From: Flavobacteriales bacterium
Lineage (GTDB): Bacteria; Bacteroidota; Bacteroidia; Flavobacteriales_D; Crocinitomicaceae
NCBI GenBank assembly: GCA_013373595.1
Contig: JABXHO010000084.1
Span: 1-63,534 of the forward strand
Direction: 5' to 3'
DNA: 63,534 bases
Under the pieces are notes generated by a model. It did not search any database and was not told the DNA's origin. It saw nothing but the letters and a program-made list of their open reading frames with translations. Made by a program: the position numbers and the translations under genes. Of this stretch, positions 2,155-13,585 are shown piece after piece (positions within the stretch are counted from its first letter, which is position 1; each line of letters starts with the position of its first letter).

Positions 2155-3357
2155 ATGTATAAATTTCCAGTCGCCTATTTCAATAGTAACAACGGAATTG
2201 GTCGTCTCGCCTTTGGTGAAGGACCAATGATCAAACTTTCTGATGAAAATCCACTTGAAGAGCTACAAGCCTTCATCGATGAACATGAAGGTAAACACCT
2301 GTTGGTTAATTTAAGCTACGACCTCAAAAATCATGTTGAAGATCTTACTTCGAAGAATCCAGACTACATGAATTTCCCTCTGGGATATGCTTGGGTTCCG
2401 AAGTACATGGTTGATTTGGAGCACGAAAACCTCATCTTCGTTCAAGGAGAAAAAAATTCGGAGGCGCTACAGTTTTTAGATCACTTCATGCAAGAGGAAA
2501 TCGATGAGAATTTCCAATCATTTCCGCACAAGTTAACCGCTCGAATTTCGAAGGAAGAATACATCAAGAATGTAAAATCGCTGAAGGAACATATTCAAAA
2601 CGGGGACATTTACGAAGTAAACTACTGTCAGGAATTCTTTGCTGAGGATGTTGAAATTCCACATAAGTTGGATGCCTACTTCAAGCTCAACTACCTGACG
2701 CGAGCGCCCTATTCGTCGTTCTTCTTTATTGATCAGTTTACCCTTTTGTGTGGAAGTCCAGAACGGTTTCTCTACCGAAAAGGCAATCGCCTGATCTCTG
2801 AACCGATCAAAGGAACAACGCGTCGTGGGAAAACACCCGAAGAAGACGAAGCATTGAAAGAAGCTTTGCTTAACGATCCAAAAGAGCGTTCTGAAAACGT
2901 CATGATTGTGGACTTGGTTCGAAATGATCTTTCCCGCATTGCGCTTCCTAACTCAGTTGAAGTAGAAGAATTATTTGGGATTTATTCGTTCGAAACAGTA
3001 CACCAAATGATTTCTCGTATTGGTTGTAATATTTCAGAAGAAACCTCTTTTACCGATATTTTACGTTCAACGTTCCCTATGGGGTCAATGACGGGTGCTC
3101 CAAAAATCAGTGCGATGAAATTGATCGAAGAGCACGAGTGCTTTCAACGTGGAATTTATTCCGGATCAATTGGATACATCCGCCCAAATGGTGATTTCGA
3201 CTTTAACGTGGTCATCCGAACCTTGGTGTACAATCACGTAAGCAAATACCTTTCATGTGCAGTAGGTGGCGCTATTACCATTAAATCTGATCCTGAAAAG
3301 GAATATGAAGAATGTAATATCAAAGTGAAAGGGATTTTAGACGGTATGAATGAATAA
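2155..3357 (+). CDS. pabB: Aminodeoxychorismate synthase component I (chorismate-binding enzyme)
   Basis: A 400-residue member of the chorismate-utilising family (anthranilate synthase I / PabB / isochorismate synthase). It converts chorismate to 4-amino-4-deoxychorismate for folate synthesis, in the cytoplasm with a glutaminase partner. Family motifs appear in order: GSPERFL (~200), PIKGTTRRGK (~217), DLVRNDLS (~257), FPMGSMTGAPK (~307) and SGSIGYI (~337). The protein is shorter than typical E. coli TrpE (~520) and close to compact PabB, and there is no trp gene nearby, so PabB is preferred over TrpE; the choice is inference. No glutaminase (PabA) gene is adjacent. Its last codons overlap tilS by 8 bases, so the two are translationally coupled. 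Confidence 0.85.
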   Translation: MYKFPVAYFNSNNGIGRLAFGEGPMIKLSDENPLEELQAFIDEHEGKHLLVNLSYDLKNHVEDLTSKNPDYMNFPLGYAWVPKYMVDLEHENLIFVQGEKNSEALQFLDHFMQEEIDENFQSFPHKLTARISKEEYIKNVKSLKEHIQNGDIYEVNYCQEFFAEDVEIPHKLDAYFKLNYLTRAPYSSFFFIDQFTLLCGSPERFLYRKGNRLISEPIKGTTRRGKTPEEDEALKEALLNDPKERSENVMIVDLVRNDLSRIALPNSVEVEELFGIYSFETVHQMISRIGCNISEETSFTDILRSTFPMGSMTGAPKISAMKLIEEHECFQRGIYSGSIGYIRPNGDFDFNVVIRTLVYNHVSKYLSCAVGGAITIKSDPEKEYEECNIKVKGILDGMNE

Positions 3358-4594
3358 GGGCTGGGAACATACGCTTTCATTCTGGAATCAATTAAAGGAT
3401 AAATCTATTTACTTAGGATGCAGTGGAGGTGTCGATTCGATGGTACTCTTGCATCTACTCCATTCTCTCAAAGTCAAACTCACCGTACTTCACGTCAATT
3501 ATCAGTTGCGTGATGAAGCATCGGATGCAGACGAACAATTTGTCCGATCGACTTGTAAGCAGCTCGGAATTCCGTTTCAAGTGAAACGAGTCGACTTGAA
3601 ATCAACATTGGAAAACGGAGGAAACTTGCAAGAAGAAGCGCGCATCGTTCGCTACAATTGGTTTCATGAAATTTTAGAAGACAATTCGAACAACCGCGTG
3701 GCTTTGGCGCATCATCAAGACGATCAAATCGAAACATTTTGGTTGAATTTGGCTCGAAAATCGGGAATTATGGGGCTCGCCTGCATGAAGCATGAGCACA
3801 ACCGCATTGTTCGTCCCCTACTCGACTTTTCGCGTGCGGAAGTGCTGAAATACGCCAAGACTCACTCCATTGAATGGCGCGAAGACCAATCCAATTCGAG
3901 CAATACATATCGACGGAATCGCTTGCGGAATGTGTTTATTCCCGAACTCGATAACGCCATTCCTAGTTTACGATCATCCACACTAAAATTGATTGCTCAT
4001 TTTCAAGAAACGCAATCTGAATTGGAAGAAAAAACACATCGCTACACGCAATCTATTCTTGAAGAAGGAAGATTATTGATTTCCACCTTCGATGCATTTT
4101 CAAGAGAAGAACGTATTGAATTGTTGCGACAATTGAACATCCTTCCGAGTTATTCTGCGCGATTGGCTGAACTCACCGAAAAAGGAACACGCATCGAGGT
4201 CAATACTCCGCTATTTTCGAGCATTGTTCGCGATGAACAACAATTCACCTTCCTTCGGAAGAAGAAAATACAACATCACCTCATCGTGGAAGAAGTTGAC
4301 CGACTCCCATCATCGTTTTCCAAAGACATCGCTTATTTTGATGCCGACAAAATTCAAGGAGAGCTACAACTACGCCCATGGAAAATTGGGGATCGCATCG
4401 CTCCTATTGGAATGAACGGAAGTCAAATGATTTCGGACATTATCAAAGACGCAAAGATTACGGCTGATATCAAACAACAGCAACTTGTCATTCACGACGA
4501 TGACTCCATTTTATGGTGTGTCGGATTAAAAATCAGTCGGAATGCCCTCCCGGATTCATCCACGAAGCGCATTTTACGCTGCTCTATTTCTTGA
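3350..4594 (+). CDS. tilS: tRNA(Ile)-lysidine synthetase
   Basis: TilS uses ATP to attach lysine to C34 of the CAU-anticodon isoleucine tRNA so that it reads AUA. The PP-loop SGGVDS sits at residues 25-30, followed by the TilS-typical helix VLLHLL, the HVNYQLR segment (~48), AHHQDDQIET (~122) and the RRNRLRN region (~182). The ~80 C-terminal residues form the TilS C-terminal domain (PWKIGDRIAPIGMNGSQMIS). Length is 414 aa, normal for the family. The ATG lies inside the last codons of pabB, indicating an operon. Its stop codon overlaps the convergent phosphatase gene by 11 bases. Confidence 0.92.
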   Translation: MNKGWEHTLSFWNQLKDKSIYLGCSGGVDSMVLLHLLHSLKVKLTVLHVNYQLRDEASDADEQFVRSTCKQLGIPFQVKRVDLKSTLENGGNLQEEARIVRYNWFHEILEDNSNNRVALAHHQDDQIETFWLNLARKSGIMGLACMKHEHNRIVRPLLDFSRAEVLKYAKTHSIEWREDQSNSSNTYRRNRLRNVFIPELDNAIPSLRSSTLKLIAHFQETQSELEEKTHRYTQSILEEGRLLISTFDAFSREERIELLRQLNILPSYSARLAELTEKGTRIEVNTPLFSSIVRDEQQFTFLRKKKIQHHLIVEEVDRLPSSFSKDIAYFDADKIQGELQLRPWKIGDRIAPIGMNGSQMISDIIKDAKITADIKQQQLVIHDDDSILWCVGLKISRNALPDSSTKRILRCSIS

Positions 4595-8020: not shown

Positions 8021-9175
8021 ATGTACACTAAACCTTCACCTATGAAAGAAGACCTCATTATAGAATTAGTAAAGCGCATCCGTCGATCTGATCGACTTTA
8101 TCAATTGATTATTTATCTGAAAAGTCATGGGATACCTGAAGATGAAATAGATGCGTATATCGCTGCGGCAAACGCTAGAATGAAAGAAGATCGGATAAAA
8201 TCTTTACCAAGAAAGAATAAGAGAACGTTTGCTGTTTTGTGTACGATATCTCTTCTTACACTTATTGCGTTTGTGTTTATTCTGCCCAAAATGGGATTTC
8301 AGCTTACCACATTTTTAGCAATTGTTGGTGCTGTTATCTTTTCGACTACCTCCATCTTAACGATTACCTATTACAATAGCTGGAAAGAGGAAAACGTAAA
8401 GCGAGAGGCCGAGATTGAGGAAAAAGATAATGGTTGGCTTTCAGTTCTTTTCGTATTGGTTCCTATACCCGCGGTGATTTTTTCATTTATTTTCATGTAC
8501 ACGCTTGAAAGCGGAGCTGATCAATTATTAAAAGAAACTCAAATTGAAACAGAGGGAATCATTATTGGTGGCTCTTCAAATTCAGTGCGCGTTCGACGAG
8601 GTAGTTTTGACTATTCAAGTGTATCCGTGAAGTTTCAAACCAAAGACGGAAAAGAAGTAGTGGCAACAGAAGATGTCTCTGAATACGAGTTCAAAGGTTT
8701 TTACAAAGGGCAGAAAGTCACGTTGATTTACTCTTCAGAAGACCCTCAAAATATTGAACTTCTGACAAACAAGAGTGCCATCAAGAAATTTAAAGATTCA
8801 GAAGAAAGAGATATTAGTGCGAACGATTTGTTGGTTCTGATGGATGCAAAGGACAGTCAGGTTTTGAATTTGCTCAATAAAATCACCTATGGATGGACCT
8901 TTGACCAAAATATTCAAGCCTATACAAATAAGTCGAAAAACATGGTCTTCCAAAAACAACCGAGTGAAATCGTTTTTATCTCAGGTGAAGTTTCCATGTA
9001 TAAGTTACCCAAACAATTTATGGGGCTAGATTTCAAAGACATCACAGAAGGAGGAATTGGAAACCCGATGATTCAACGCGAACGAAACCTTGAGAATGAA
9101 CGCTTTTTGGTAAGTATTGAGCGCACACGATCTGGGCAACAGCGCTTTGTAACAACTACGGTTGCAAAGAAATAA
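8021..9175 (+). CDS. DUF3592-like membrane protein
   Basis: A 384-residue protein. Residues 1-65 are charged and helical (a leader resembling short C-terminal SHOCT/helical-hairpin modules, not assigned). Hydrophobic helices lie at about 68-90, 95-116 and 143-165. Residues ~172-245 are beta-rich and read EGIIIGG...SVSVKFQTKDGKEVVA...YKGQKVTLIYSSEDPQNIEL, which has the look of the DUF3592 domain found in many membrane proteins of unknown function. The last ~130 residues are soluble and unassigned. An in-frame ATG at 8042 is an alternative start. It is followed by the REP-like array with no clear terminator. Confidence 0.65.
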   Translation: MYTKPSPMKEDLIIELVKRIRRSDRLYQLIIYLKSHGIPEDEIDAYIAAANARMKEDRIKSLPRKNKRTFAVLCTISLLTLIAFVFILPKMGFQLTTFLAIVGAVIFSTTSILTITYYNSWKEENVKREAEIEEKDNGWLSVLFVLVPIPAVIFSFIFMYTLESGADQLLKETQIETEGIIIGGSSNSVRVRRGSFDYSSVSVKFQTKDGKEVVATEDVSEYEFKGFYKGQKVTLIYSSEDPQNIELLTNKSAIKKFKDSEERDISANDLLVLMDAKDSQVLNLLNKITYGWTFDQNIQAYTNKSKNMVFQKQPSEIVFISGEVSMYKLPKQFMGLDFKDITEGGIGNPMIQRERNLENERFLVSIERTRSGQQRFVTTTVAKK

Positions 9176-9205
9176 GCTTTATGATAGTGAAGCTGATACT
9201 AATTA

Positions 9206-9873
9206 GCTCTGCAAGGCTTACAATTCTGCGTTAACTAAACTAGCCTTGAAGTCTGAATGGCGAAGGATTGTAAATCCTTCGCAGCCGCGAGTAATCTCAA
9301 GTTAAATCGAGCTCTATTCATAGCAAGTTAAGCTGCACAGGATGACGAAGGATTACAAATCCTTCGTAGCAGTGTTTCATCAACGCTATTCGAGACATAA
9401 TGCAGCTGCGCAGGATTTGCAATCCTGCGCTAACCAAACTAACCTTCAAACCCATAACAGCAACAATTCACAAAAAGGCCTTACCTCAGAACCTCCTTTC
9501 AATTTCTGTTATCGTTCGCGATTAATGAAATAGTTAACTTCATAAGTGAATGGCGAAGGATTGTAAATCCTTCGTAGCAGTGTTTCACCAACACTATTCA
9601 AGGCATAATCAGCTGCGCAGGATTTGCAATCCTGTGCTAACCAACCTAACCTTCAGGTCTATCACAGCAACAATTCACAAAAATGGCCGTGCCTCAGAAC
9701 AACTTTTCAATTTCTGTTATCGTTAGCGATTAATGCAATAATCAACTTCATGAGTGAGTGAATGTCGAAGGATTGCAAATCCTTCGTGGCGACGTTTCGT
9801 CAGCACTGTTAAAAGCATAATGCAGCTACGCTGGATTTGCAATCCTGCGCTAACCAATATATTCACCATTTTC
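9206..9873. repeat. Left half of a REP/BIME-like tandem array
   Basis: Begins with diverged fragments (a B-like palindrome at ~9206-9233 and an A hairpin at 9261-9281), then units starting at 9346 (208 bp), 9554 (212 bp) and 9766 (cut short by the transposase gene). Each unit has hairpin A, cgaaggatt-nnn-aatccttcg (A copies at 9346-9366, 9554-9574 and 9766-9786), a small stem-loop CAGTGTT...AACACTG in some copies, and hairpin B, GCGCAGGATT-TGC-AATCCTGCGC (9408-9430; variants 9615-9637 and 9828-9850). Complete units also carry a C element, AAAAGGCC...CTCAG...CCTTTC. Stems are conserved while loops vary. No gene is supported in this stretch; short open frames here are the repeat read as protein, and indels between units break their frame. 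Confidence 0.85.
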
Positions 9874-10473
9874 TCAACTCACAGTCTGCAGCCTCGGCGT
9901 TAAACAATAAACTTCCTTCAACAACGACTCCTCATTCTGGTAATTACTCGCCGATGAGTACCGCCAATCTGCAGCATTGCTCACAAAACCTTCTTCAACA
10001 GGATTATTATGAATGTAATTGATTTTGTCCCATGTAAAACGTTCGCTGAATAACTCAATAGCGTGATTACCCGTTTGCCAAAATTTGTAATTTTTATGCT
10101 TTGAACTTACTTCACCTGCTTTCTCAAACTTTTGTAGCATCCATTCCCTACGTGATTCCGGCTCATTTTTAATCTGATCTAGCACTTTCTTCGCTGTAAA
10201 CTTCTTAAAATCACGTATCACATTCTTTAACTCAGTACTTCCATTCGTATTCACGATCAGGTGTAAATGGTTTGGCATTAAACAATAACTGTAAACACTC
10301 AGCCCTTTATTCTTTATACAAAATCGCAATGAATCAATGATCGCATCTTTGTGATTCTTACGTGTAAACACATCGATCCAATCGACTACTGTCATCGTTA
10401 AGTAATAGCTACCATTAGTCTTAATTGTGTGCTTAATTCCTGATCTCATATATATTAAGATAGTAATTTTCAT
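9874..10473 (-). mobile_element. REP-associated tyrosine transposase (RAYT, Y1/HUH family)
   Basis: A 199-residue single-domain Y1 transposase; an in-frame ATG at 10446 (MRSGIKH) may be the true start. The HUH-type motif is MPNHLHLIV with H69 and H71, and the nucleophilic tyrosine is Y153 in DKINYIHNNPV, the usual RAYT signature. Proteins of this family cut and join single-stranded DNA at REP hairpins and are domesticated relatives of IS200/IS605 transposases. Here the gene sits inside the array of hairpins: hairpin B (9828-9850) lies 23 bases past its stop, and hairpin A (10507-10527) lies 33 bases before its ATG. No terminal inverted repeats or target duplication are visible, consistent with RAYT rather than a classical IS. 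The frame is intact, so it may be functional. Confidence 0.9.
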
Positions 10474-10480
10474 GATGAGA

Positions 10481-10990
10481 GTGAAGTGCGAAGTATAAAT
10501 GTATGGCGAAGGATTTCAAATCCTTCGCAGCAGTGTTTCACCAGCACTATTCAAAGCATAATGCAGCTGCGCAGGGCTTGCAATCCTGCGCTAACCAAAC
10601 TAACCTTCAAACCTATCACAGCAACAATTCACCAAAAGGCAGTACCTCAGCACAACCTTTCAATTTATGTTATCGTTCGCGATTAATGCAATAATCAACT
10701 TCATGAGTGAGTGAATGTCGAAGGATTGTAAATCCTTCGCAGCAGTGTTTCACCAACACTGTTCAAAGCACGATCAGCTGCGCAGGATTTGCAATCCTGC
10801 GCTAACCAAACTAACCTTTAAGTCTATTACAGCAACAATTCACAAAAAGGCCGTGCCTCAGCACGACCTTTCAATTTATGTTATCGTTCGCGATTAATGC
10901 AATAGTGCAACTTCATGAATGAATGGCGAAGGATTGCAAATCCTTCGCAGCAGTGGACTACAAATCCTTCGTAGCACGTTTCTTCGCAGC
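10481..10990. repeat. Right half of the REP/BIME-like tandem array
   Basis: Two full units start at 10507 (212 bp) and 10719 (208 bp), followed by hairpin A at 10927-10947 and a decayed half-copy to about 10975. B hairpins lie at 10569-10591 (one stem base altered) and 10780-10802 (perfect). The unit at 10719 also shows the perfect small stem CAGTGTT-TCACC-AACACTG between A and B. The same C element is seen as on the left, in its most paired form (GGCCGTGC-CTCA-GCACGACC). The 208/212-bp periods match those on the left side. No protein-coding gene is supported. Confidence 0.85.
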
Positions 10991-11001
10991 ACGTGAACTA
11001 A

Positions 11002-11034
11002 AAACAAAAAAAGGCCGCATCGCTGCGACCTTTT
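11002..11034 (-). terminator. Rho-independent terminator of the M14 carboxypeptidase gene
   Basis: On the minus strand a stem AAAGGTCGCA / TGCGGCCTTT with a short loop is followed by a T-rich tract, 22 bases past the stop codon. Its stem closely resembles the C element of the adjacent repeat units. Confidence 0.75.
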
Positions 11035-11056
11035 CCAGTTCTATTTTCAATAGCGT

Positions 11057-13429
11057 TTAATGCACGACCACCAACTTCACGGGTTTCACTGCCACACCAT
11101 TCTCTTCTACGAATACCATGTAAACACCTTGAGCAAACTCAGCTGTATTTACTGTTAACTTATTCGTTTGTTCCTTGATGTCACGCATGTGAATCAATTG
11201 GCCGCTTTGGTTGTAGATTTTCATTGAACCGTCGGTGATCACTTTCGACAAGCTAATGAATGCTTGATGATTCGCTGGGTTTGGAATTGTTTTCACATCG
11301 AAAGCAAACTCGTTTAATCCTGAGGTTGTGTCCGCTTCATTGAAGCTCACTTGGAAATCGTCGAAGTAGAATCCGTCTTCGCGTACACCACCATCAGCTT
11401 CCAAAATGAAACGCAAACGAATGTTTTGACCGAGATAATCACTCAAACTGATTTCTTCCAATACCCAATCCGTTTGGAATCCTTCGTAAATGGGTAAGTT
11501 GTCGGGCTGAACACTTCCATTGGCACTTGTTCCCAACACTGTGTAGTTCCCACACTGTCCTGTCCATGAATTTCCTCCATCGGTTGATACTTGGAATTGT
11601 GCGTAATCGTAATCCGCTTCGATTTCCCATTTTGCGTAGAAACTTACCATCGCTCCTGTTGCATTCGTTAAGTCCACATCTTGGTTGAACTCATAAGTAC
11701 GCGATGAGTTATTTGAATAGTTTCCTGATGGACTATCCGTAAAACTCGTTGAAGGTGAAACAAATGTTTGATTTGTTGTAGACCACGTTCCTGTCCAGTT
11801 CGCTGTGCTTGAAGCATCTTCTGAATACTGCAAAGTTGCCGAACCGTAGGTTTTAATGATTGTATCTCTATCAATCCACAAACCATAATCGGTATTGAGT
11901 ACGTACTTGATTTCATCACCAAAGTTGATCGCTGGATCTAACACAAATGAAATAGTACTAGTCGCTGTTTGGCTAATATTTAAGGTATAAGGAACTCCTG
12001 CCCCAACCGATTGAATGTTTTGCAAAGGCTCAATAGAAACAGTCACTGTTCCATCTTTTCGTCCCAAGCGCTTAACGCTGTGGGTGAAGTCTCCAGTCAT
12101 AGCAGCTACCGAACCCGCATCTTCATCCTTCGTTACGTAATATTGGTGAGGAAGGTGCGCCATCACCAAATTTGGATGCAACATTTCGATACACGTGGGA
12201 ACAATTCCTGCTTGCGAAGGCCAAAACGCATCTCCCACCTCTGGTGTGATTGCAAAAACGGTATCCTTGTTTCCTACACCGATGTCTACCTTATACATAT
12301 AATCATCTGAATCTCCCGATGCTGGGTACAATCCAGAACTTTTTTGAGCTTGGTAGCCATTGTAAACGGCCATGTGATTCGTGTAATCTTGGAAATAATC
12401 GTGGTGATCAGCAAACTCAGCCGATGTTGTCCCTATTGGGTGTAGCAATAAATCACCGTAGGTATGCGAGTTCGAAGCAAACTGAAAACCGTAGGTTTCT
12501 GTTAACCATCTCATTGCTTGTGTTTCTGGTTCAGAAAACGGTCCAGATCCAGGGTAGGTATCGTTATTTGGATCGGAGGATACTCCTGTTGTGTTCCATC
12601 CGTATGAGTAATTTCTGTTCAAATCAACTCCAGGATTCGACGATCCAACAGGCGCTTTATTTTTACGGTGCATTCCGAAACCGCTCGGATCATTCGATTC
12701 ATTCTCAATATATCCATCTGGATTGATACATGGCACAAAGAATAGCTGTGTGTTATCTACCAAAAACTGCACCTCTTCATTGGTTGCATAATTTTCCAAC
12801 AAATACCACATGTAGAAAAGCGTCTGTGTCATTGAAAGCGGTTCGCGCGCGTGGTGAATCGCTGAGTACAATACGTTTGGCTCCGTTGCCGATTCGTCTG
12901 TATTCGGATTGTCTGAAATGACCACGTGGTAGATCGGACGTCCTTCATGTGTTTGAAAGTTCGAAATGGGTGCTTTTACCGTGATCAAGTTCGGATATTG
13001 CGCGACCATGTCATCCAAAGCATTCAGCATGTCTTGATATTTGTAGAATCCAGCGTAGCTATTGTTCTCAAAGTGATTTGCCGGAACGGGTGGATTGAAT
13101 CCTCCGCTGCCAGGACCTTGATTACACGTTGCATTTTTCGTCGACACATACGGATCGTTGCTGTGCTCAGCGTAGTATGCTTTCACGTCGTCAATGATGA
13201 TTTCGTACTGGAAACCATTCGATTCCATGATGGAAATTTCATAATCCGAGAAATCGCTGATGAAGAAGGTGTTCTTTTTTGAAACACCATGATCCACTGC
13301 AACTCCCAGCTCTGCCAGTTGTGACAAGCCATCGGAATCAGTATAAATTTTAACCTTCGAGTATTTTTGTTGAGCCACGGAGAATATGCTCAGGCCGACT
13401 ACGGCGATCAGAGTAGAGAATAATTTCAT
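11057..13429 (-). CDS. Secreted zinc carboxypeptidase (peptidase M14) with T9SS sorting domain
   Basis: The start at 13429 is preferred to an upstream in-frame ATG because it begins a signal peptide (MKLFSTLIAVVGLSIFSVAQ); the product is 790 residues. An M14 domain follows: the zinc site HHAREPLS, the substrate-binding DLNRNYSYGW, the third zinc ligand in SNSHTYGDLLLHP and the catalytic glutamate in ITPEVGDAFWPS. Then come ~300 residues of beta-sandwich, including a jelly-roll-like module (YAQFQVSTDGGNSWTGQCG). The C-terminal ~80 residues form a type A sorting domain (TIPNPANHQAFISL...GVYMVFVEENG), so the protein should be exported by T9SS and anchored or released at the surface. It would trim peptides from their C-termini. 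Monocistronic, with a strong terminator downstream. Confidence 0.9.
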   Translation of the reverse strand: MKLFSTLIAVVGLSIFSVAQQKYSKVKIYTDSDGLSQLAELGVAVDHGVSKKNTFFISDFSDYEISIMESNGFQYEIIIDDVKAYYAEHSNDPYVSTKNATCNQGPGSGGFNPPVPANHFENNSYAGFYKYQDMLNALDDMVAQYPNLITVKAPISNFQTHEGRPIYHVVISDNPNTDESATEPNVLYSAIHHAREPLSMTQTLFYMWYLLENYATNEEVQFLVDNTQLFFVPCINPDGYIENESNDPSGFGMHRKNKAPVGSSNPGVDLNRNYSYGWNTTGVSSDPNNDTYPGSGPFSEPETQAMRWLTETYGFQFASNSHTYGDLLLHPIGTTSAEFADHHDYFQDYTNHMAVYNGYQAQKSSGLYPASGDSDDYMYKVDIGVGNKDTVFAITPEVGDAFWPSQAGIVPTCIEMLHPNLVMAHLPHQYYVTKDEDAGSVAAMTGDFTHSVKRLGRKDGTVTVSIEPLQNIQSVGAGVPYTLNISQTATSTISFVLDPAINFGDEIKYVLNTDYGLWIDRDTIIKTYGSATLQYSEDASSTANWTGTWSTTNQTFVSPSTSFTDSPSGNYSNNSSRTYEFNQDVDLTNATGAMVSFYAKWEIEADYDYAQFQVSTDGGNSWTGQCGNYTVLGTSANGSVQPDNLPIYEGFQTDWVLEEISLSDYLGQNIRLRFILEADGGVREDGFYFDDFQVSFNEADTTSGLNEFAFDVKTIPNPANHQAFISLSKVITDGSMKIYNQSGQLIHMRDIKEQTNKLTVNTAEFAQGVYMVFVEENGVAVKPVKLVVVH

Positions 13430-13585
13430 TTTATAGTTCTTAGTTCGTTTCTGCAATTTACACACTTTTTTCAAGAATTCCAGAATGAACATTCAATTCG
13501 ACTTCAATTCATACGGAACATTTTCCATTCTCCACACGTCGAAACCATTTATACCAATTCAACAATGAAACGTCGAAATGCGCTC

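Follow-up and report, generated by a model that had tools for sequence, protein, structure and literature searches.

A RAYT gene within a tandem array of inverted REP pairs whose units partly resemble the end of an adjacent gene in a Flavobacteriales bacterium

Introduction

How REPs spread, and how tidy tandem arrays of them come to lie next to genes for REP-associated tyrosine transposases (RAYTs), is an unsettled question. In those parts of the published reports that were available to us, a REPtron is described as a gene for a Y1 HuH enzyme with inverted REPs on both sides, with REPs dispersed elsewhere in the genome and with one enzyme gene (PMC2817692, PMC6006769). The accessible text of one study states that a third of its RAYTs were directly associated with BIMEs (PMC2817692). 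REP pairs are also found in tandem, together with flanking DNA, near RAYT genes, where they have been called tandem REPINs, BIME-2 or REP clusters (PMC3116915, PMC3733652); in Pseudomonas fluorescens SBW25, an excerpt describes tandem REPINs 'including the flanking sequences' beside each RAYT (PMC3116915). RAYTs of E. coli and other bacteria are reported, in the portion at hand, to cut at CT or CA in the vicinity of REPs, the REP foot being the likely guide (PMC8266576). The IS200/IS605 elements share with these systems a related Y1 HuH enzyme, the recognition of hairpins and a short foot sequence that guides the cut (PMC2817692, PMC8266576), and their members are said in the available text not to make larger target site duplications (PMC2817692). 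As far as these excerpts go, both the nesting of a RAYT gene among REPs and the repetition of flanking DNA are already in print in general terms (PMC3733652, PMC3116915, PMC2817692).

Here we describe a locus of this known kind from a Flavobacteriales bacterium, a REPtron inside a tandem array of inverted REP pairs, and we compare it with other arrays of the same genome and with RAYT loci of related genomes.

Results

Layout of the array

The window, by which we mean the whole 63,534-nt stretch of DNA that was analysed, carries the array between two convergent genes (8021-9175, plus strand, and 11057-13492, minus strand). A reading made from the sequence alone had described units of 208 and 212 bp with hairpins A, B and C, and this description was confirmed. 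A hairpins start at 9260, 9345, 9553, 9765, 10506, 10718 and 10926, with consecutive spacings of 85, 208, 212, 741, 212 and 208, and B hairpins start at 9408, 9615, 9828, 10569 and 10780. The two halves of the array received TRF scores of 739 and 733. Pairwise identity among the four complete units is 87.4-91.8%, which excludes a chance origin of the array.

On the plus strand, the array opens with a decayed leftmost unit (9204..9289) that consists of a B remnant (~9204-9230), a short spacer and an A hairpin (9260-9282) with its outer foot. It is followed by unit 1 (9345..9553, 208 bp; A 9345-9367, B 9408-9430, C ~9473-9499) and unit 2 (9554..9765, 212 bp; A 9553-9575, B 9615-9637, C ~9680-9707). 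Only the first half of unit 3 is present (9765..9857; A 9765-9787, with the foot GGC and not AGC, and B 9828-9850); its likeness to the other units ends at ~9857 and resumes a few bases before the A hairpin at 10506. Beyond the RAYT gene lie unit 4 (10506..10718, 212 bp; A 10506-10528, B 10569-10591, C ~10633-10661) and unit 5 (10719..10926, 208 bp; A 10718-10740, B 10780-10802, C ~10844-10872). The array closes with a last A hairpin (10926-10948) and its 7-nt foot AGCAGTG (10949-10955), which together span 10926..10955 of the plus strand; the likeness to the other units ends directly after this foot (10955/10956). REP fragments (about 10956..10996, plus strand) separate the last A hairpin from native DNA and its terminator. 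These fragments and the decayed leftmost unit go beyond the sequence-only description.

The A-B pairs of the four complete units and of the half unit have their feet toward each other, 62-63 bp apart, so that the array consists of inverted REP pairs in tandem, as do BIME-2 and tandem REPIN clusters. Hairpin C is imperfect and is followed by T's when read on the minus strand. The sequence-only reading had regarded a RAYT gene within an ordered REP array as out of the ordinary, a view that could not be upheld, as the E. coli rayt gene is flanked on both sides by BIME-2 in the available text of a published account (PMC2817692).

The RAYT gene

One intact RAYT gene of 199 aa (9874..10473, minus strand) lies between B3 and A4, 23 nt separating B3 from the stop codon and 32 nt separating the ATG from A4; it takes the place of one unit's B-to-A interval, as had been noted from the sequence. 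The earlier identification as a RAYT was likewise borne out. The protein matched the NCBIfam family for REP-associated tyrosine transposases (NF047646) with 100.6 bits against a cut-off of 80 (E 6.7e-29) and the Pfam family Y1_Tnp, and the best PDB chain for its predicted model (mean pLDDT 87.9) was 4er8, the E. coli RAYT-REP complex (E 8.9e-8). Residues H69, H71 and Y153 are intact, and all three are invariant across 21 aligned sequences, that of the window included; Y153 is presumably the catalytic tyrosine, given the family's known YIHxNP context. Family membership, catalytic residues and predicted fold all identify the gene as a RAYT. Most of the aligned relatives begin at residue 9 of the window RAYT, and the true start may therefore lie 24 bp inside the ORF.

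As in a REPtron, the REP family is accompanied in this draft genome by one full-length enzyme gene, the 4.69-Mb assembly holding a single Y1_Tnp match. A 26-aa RAYT remnant with a stop was seen on contig C137 (L030 1129-1298), beside two identical 31-bp REP copies. Of 202 RAYT relatives found, the best 80 were kept, and the nearest two named relatives among these 80 are from Crocinitomicaceae MAGs (73-74% identity). Among 349 genomes of the order, 59 had a RAYT match with an E-value of 1e-25 or better, and at this threshold another query gave matches in 124 of 395 genomes of the class; in a first set of relatives, a RAYT was found in 18/60 at E 1e-10. In-frame stops were observed in the RAYT matches at L068, L082 and L107, three of the 33 ranges checked, and in several more matches of the genome-wide tables.

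Hairpins and their feet

The A and B hairpins had been taken for REPs of a dispersed type, and a genome search agreed with this. The A-type palindrome pattern, with at most two mismatches, has 30 sites in the genome, of which nine lie in the window and the remaining 21 are spread over nine further contigs, and a reversed control pattern has none. Confinement of the hairpins to this locus, which the sequence-only reading had named as grounds for refuting dispersal, is thus not what was observed. REPs dispersed elsewhere in the genome are a further feature that the locus shares with REPtrons.

All A and B hairpins of the window except A3 (11 of 12) have GCT/AGC as their outer foot. The GCT feet of B3 and A4 are directed away from the RAYT gene, which is thus flanked by REPs in inverted orientation. 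Canonical REPs, as described in the accessible parts of the REPtron literature, carry GT[AG]G at the hairpin's 5' foot, in contrast to the GCT foot found in the window. A Bacteroidetes RAYT subclass, 2.6, is said in the available text to have atypical REPs (PMC6006769); it is set beside the window RAYT here by description only.

Palindromes were located within 150 bp of related RAYTs on 118 of 204 flank sides. Their outer foot is GCT in 46/118 and CGC, AGC, TGC or GGC in 39/118, and their inner foot follows no consensus; these counts leave out a broad REP pattern scan in six relatives. REPs around related RAYTs mostly have an outer GCT foot, not GTAG, an observation that is new here.

In the sequence-only reading, the ~210-bp unit was itself a candidate mobile unit, and the RAYT gene had landed in one of its copies. 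The regularity of the units and the seating of the gene in one of them would fit such an origin. However, a genome search with a 225-bp unit query gave 14 matches, and the seven outside the window were hairpin pieces of 24-32 bp and no copy of the unit; the other arrays of the genome have other spacers, and each unit resembles the end of the neighbouring gene in its second half. A mobile ~210-bp unit is therefore highly improbable.

Host gene ends within the units

The gene next to the array (11057..13492, minus strand) encodes an 811-aa M14 zinc carboxypeptidase that has a secretion-tail domain. In each complete unit, the second half aligned with the terminator and the last 23-28 nt of this gene, and the order after hairpin A is conserved. 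Sequence and alignment suggest that the terminator-like hairpin of the peptidase gene (11003..11035, minus strand) was the model for hairpin C. The last 28 nt of the gene (11057..11084, minus strand) match the end of units 2 and 4, and in units 1 and 5 the match runs to 11079. The tail of unit 5 aligned with the gene end at a local score of 56; when it was placed at random on the same strand of the window 1935 times, no placement attained this score (maximum 44). The flanking DNA of the units thus resembles the end of the adjacent gene, which would be its source. Tracing such DNA to a probable origin is new here, and it is one respect in which the array differs from the REPtrons and tandem REPIN clusters of the excerpts that we compared.

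We searched 40 genomes for homologs of the peptidase and obtained 24 loci with the C-terminus and at least 262 bp of downstream sequence, 18 of which were the best match of another genome of the same genus. None of the 24 loci had direct repeats downstream of the peptidase gene. In one other genome of the same genus (L158), a single REP-like palindrome (CGCAGTAGTTTGACTGCTGCG) was observed directly after the stop codon of the peptidase homolog.

These results bear on whether the array is kept for regulation, its terminators being stacked between the two convergent neighbours. The position of the array and the terminator-like hairpin C in the four complete units are consistent with such a role, which would explain the retention of the array but not its origin; the 24 homologs, all devoid of repeats, also argue against it, and we consider it improbable.

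Capture of host gene ends was found elsewhere in the same genome. At the start of contig C103, 41 nt from the 3' end of its 699-aa gene (40/41 identical) are fused to a REP, and the units on C155 contain ~31 nt of the SRP RNA 3' end (Rfam RF04183) fused to a REP. In the REP clusters that we inspected at C165 and C5, a host-end capture like those of C103 and C155 was not clear. The start of C103 (L016 1-782) and the end of C130 (L017 2506-3174) apparently belong to one REP array with units of 164-168 bp, and both contigs break inside it, so that the assembly may understate its length.

Contig C43 (L021) presents two further arrangements. At 3381-4215, a tRNA-Leu 3' end and its terminator are repeated in tandem; a GIY-YIG nuclease ORF (3469-3765, minus strand) is nested between the copies, no RAYT is present there, and the palindrome at the junctions of this array (CCCGATAGCTATCGGG) is a different one. 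Within 2373-3385, two direct repeats of 241 bp (95% identical) with REP-like hairpins flank a 159-aa ORF (2658-3137, minus strand) that has no Pfam or PHROGs match and is perhaps a passenger gene between REP repeats.

Repeats flanking related RAYT cassettes

We compared the left and right 700-bp flanks of RAYT loci for direct repeats of at least 40 bp. Such repeats were present at 22 of 96 RAYT loci, the window included, and three mismatched control sets gave 0, 1 and 2; the same flank test at peptidase loci gave direct repeats at 0/25. Inverted flank repeats of at least 40 bp were likewise found at 22 of the 96 RAYT loci, a figure that stands without a control set. Direct repeats around some relatives' cassettes are a further difference from the REPtrons of the available descriptions, and, at ~28-123 bp, they also set these cassettes apart from IS200/IS605 elements. 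We found no report of long target duplications at RAYT cassettes in the titles and abstract openings that were searched, a body of text in which subscription papers were mostly not covered.

The edges of the repeats were then placed relative to the REP foot, again a difference from the tandem REPIN clusters as described in the excerpts. The edge histogram comprised 113 loci, 202 tagged sides and 377 repeat pairs. Edges facing the tagged side were located 5, 6, 7 and 8 nt outside the hairpin in 5, 8, 8 and 6 cases (27 in total); no edge fell between -9 and 0 or at 9. Thirteen loci contribute the 22 edges at 6-8 nt, and these do not represent 22 events, as four of them come from one array (L120). 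With looser hairpin calling, the 6-8 bin contained 27 edges compared with 9-13 in the adjacent bins; the larger peaks at -24 to -30 correspond to the hairpin's other foot and are expected because REPs themselves repeat. Edges of the other kind peak at 2-7.

When both ends of a cassette had to lie within 2 nt of 7, a first run yielded one locus, and pooling the hairpin callers under two BLAST settings yielded 3/118 (L070, L071 and L096). Shifted controls with the same tolerance of 2 yielded none, except for one locus each at -30 and +25. Both cassette ends of L070 and L096 lie exactly at 7 nt, with repeats of 92 and 104 bp, and the flanking repeat of L071 measures ~50 bp.

A further test anchored the repeats at the tags. 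We examined 143 locus clusters, 85 of which were without tagged REPs on both sides or enough flank. Nine of the 58 testable RAYT loci, the window's own array included, scored at least 15, each locus being scored as the best over its tag pairs, which slightly favours true loci; the anchored repeat was absent at the other 49. Among 3306 mismatched pairs, one reached 15 and two reached 12 (scores of 47 and 13), both of them pairing Lutibacter L124 with L128. When the anchor was shifted, the count stayed at nine for offsets 3 to 10 and was 7-10 from -60 to 0. The anchored test therefore shows flanking repeats and not the exact distance of 7 nt. The best offsets of the nine loci and of a duplicate, L215, range from -2 to 16.

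L096 allowed a comparison of occupied and uninterrupted target DNA, since two uninterrupted copies of the target are also present. The left flank corresponds to positions 10-131 of one uninterrupted copy and the right flank to positions 35-206, so that ~100 bp that are single in the uninterrupted copies are double around the RAYT gene. The left and right repeats are 88% identical and have in common a short variant that is missing from both uninterrupted copies.

L217 (G151:C6, 598-2034) contains two nearly identical RAYT cassettes in tandem, each followed by a 123-bp host piece (122/123 identical) that includes 63 nt of the 3' end of one neighbour gene and ~39 nt of that of the other. The host pieces and the tandem RAYT copies are recent. 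A search for the orthologous unoccupied site gave matches in six of ten genomes of the genus, one of them L217's own, and the upstream neighbour was not detected at the loci of the five relatives. Possible tandem RAYT arrays were also noticed at G348:C152:4-1146, with three RAYT 3' portions in a row ~400 bp apart, and at G392:C163:698-1822, with two RAYT matches ~660 bp apart.

A scan of 94 loci for REP-linked repeats located the 3' end of 12 ORFs (10 loci) and the 5' end of seven ORFs (six loci) inside a repeat; ends of the RAYTs themselves and some ORFs of doubtful status are included in these counts, and the old case of the window falls below the threshold. A rule by which only gene 3' ends are captured was rejected, as the 5' ends of the seven ORFs are captured too.

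Discussion

The REPs of this genome may have been placed by the RAYT and then have been duplicated passively, through replication slippage or a template switch at stable hairpins and subsequent unequal recombination, with no part of the RAYT in the making of the array. This is a serious rival to an active role of the enzyme. The A-B pairs form strong hairpins (DNA folding energies of -21 to -27 kcal/mol), and the tRNA-Leu copies on C43, with their different palindrome and GIY-YIG gene, indicate that similar captures occur beside another palindrome without a RAYT. In the window, moreover, host DNA meets hairpin A on the side of the hairpin that is untagged. However, slippage does not predict that repeat edges on tagged sides cluster 5-8 nt outside the hairpin, nor that the cassette ends of L070 and L096 both lie at 7 nt, and we regard a purely passive origin as somewhat unlikely.

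Our main reading, to which we assign a probability of about one half, is that this REPtron lies in an array whose units arose by local duplication of DNA beside REPs, through cutting by the RAYT, joining, copying and recombination. The array would carry host DNA because its units arose in this way; what was locally duplicated would be the peptidase gene's terminator and final 25-28 nt. The RAYT would cut single-stranded DNA ~7 nt outside the REP foot, on the GCT-tagged side. Host DNA at a distance of tens to ~120 bp, probably on a sister strand at the replication fork, could then receive the freed end, and the interval would thereby be copied. The resulting direct repeats would permit the array to grow or shrink by unequal crossing-over. 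Cleavage at a fixed distance from a GCT foot is plausible in view of the CT or CA cuts that other RAYTs make near REPs, and the last A hairpin of the window, with a likeness that ends after the 7-nt foot, fits the cutting model. In favour of the reading are the identity of the RAYT, the dispersed hairpins, the likeness of the unit tails to a peptidase gene end that has no repeats in 24 homologs, the captured ends at C103 and C155, the GCT feet, the edges at 5-8 nt, the cassette ends of L070, L071 and L096, the tandem cassettes of L217 and the L096 target copies. Against it stand the 49 loci with no anchored repeat, the insensitivity of the anchored test to the offset, the larger edge peaks at the other foot and the edges of the other kind at 2-7, the inverted flank repeats, the captured 5' ends and the 88% identity of the L096 repeats. 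The window's array is old, and we infer its origin by cutting, joining and copying. The 25-26 bp tag-to-tag interval (9583-9607 in unit 2) has no recognisable partner outside, and this, together with the junction on the untagged side, means that the window alone is no proof of the model.

For this Bacteroidota clade as a whole, we tentatively suggest that RAYTs still move or rejoin their cassette by cutting ~7 nt outside GCT-tagged REPs, each event copying ~30-120 bp of target, and that the arrays are the product of these events and of recombination. Such continued activity is possible, if somewhat less probable than the local origin proposed for the units of the window.

New here are the host source of the flanking DNA, as suggested by its resemblance to the adjacent gene end, the GCT foot and, at the relatives, repeat edges ~7 nt outside the tagged hairpin. 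Arrays of this kind have been said, in the accessible part of an earlier report, to point to a second mechanism of cluster formation (PMC3116915). The concrete prediction to be drawn from the clade is that cutting occurs ~7 nt outside a GCT foot, and the clade's recent tandem RAYTs (L217), readable flanking repeats and clustered edges provide natural substrates. If true, continued movement or rejoining of the cassette would answer how tandem REPIN clusters form, and this array and its relatives give clues to how such rows may grow.
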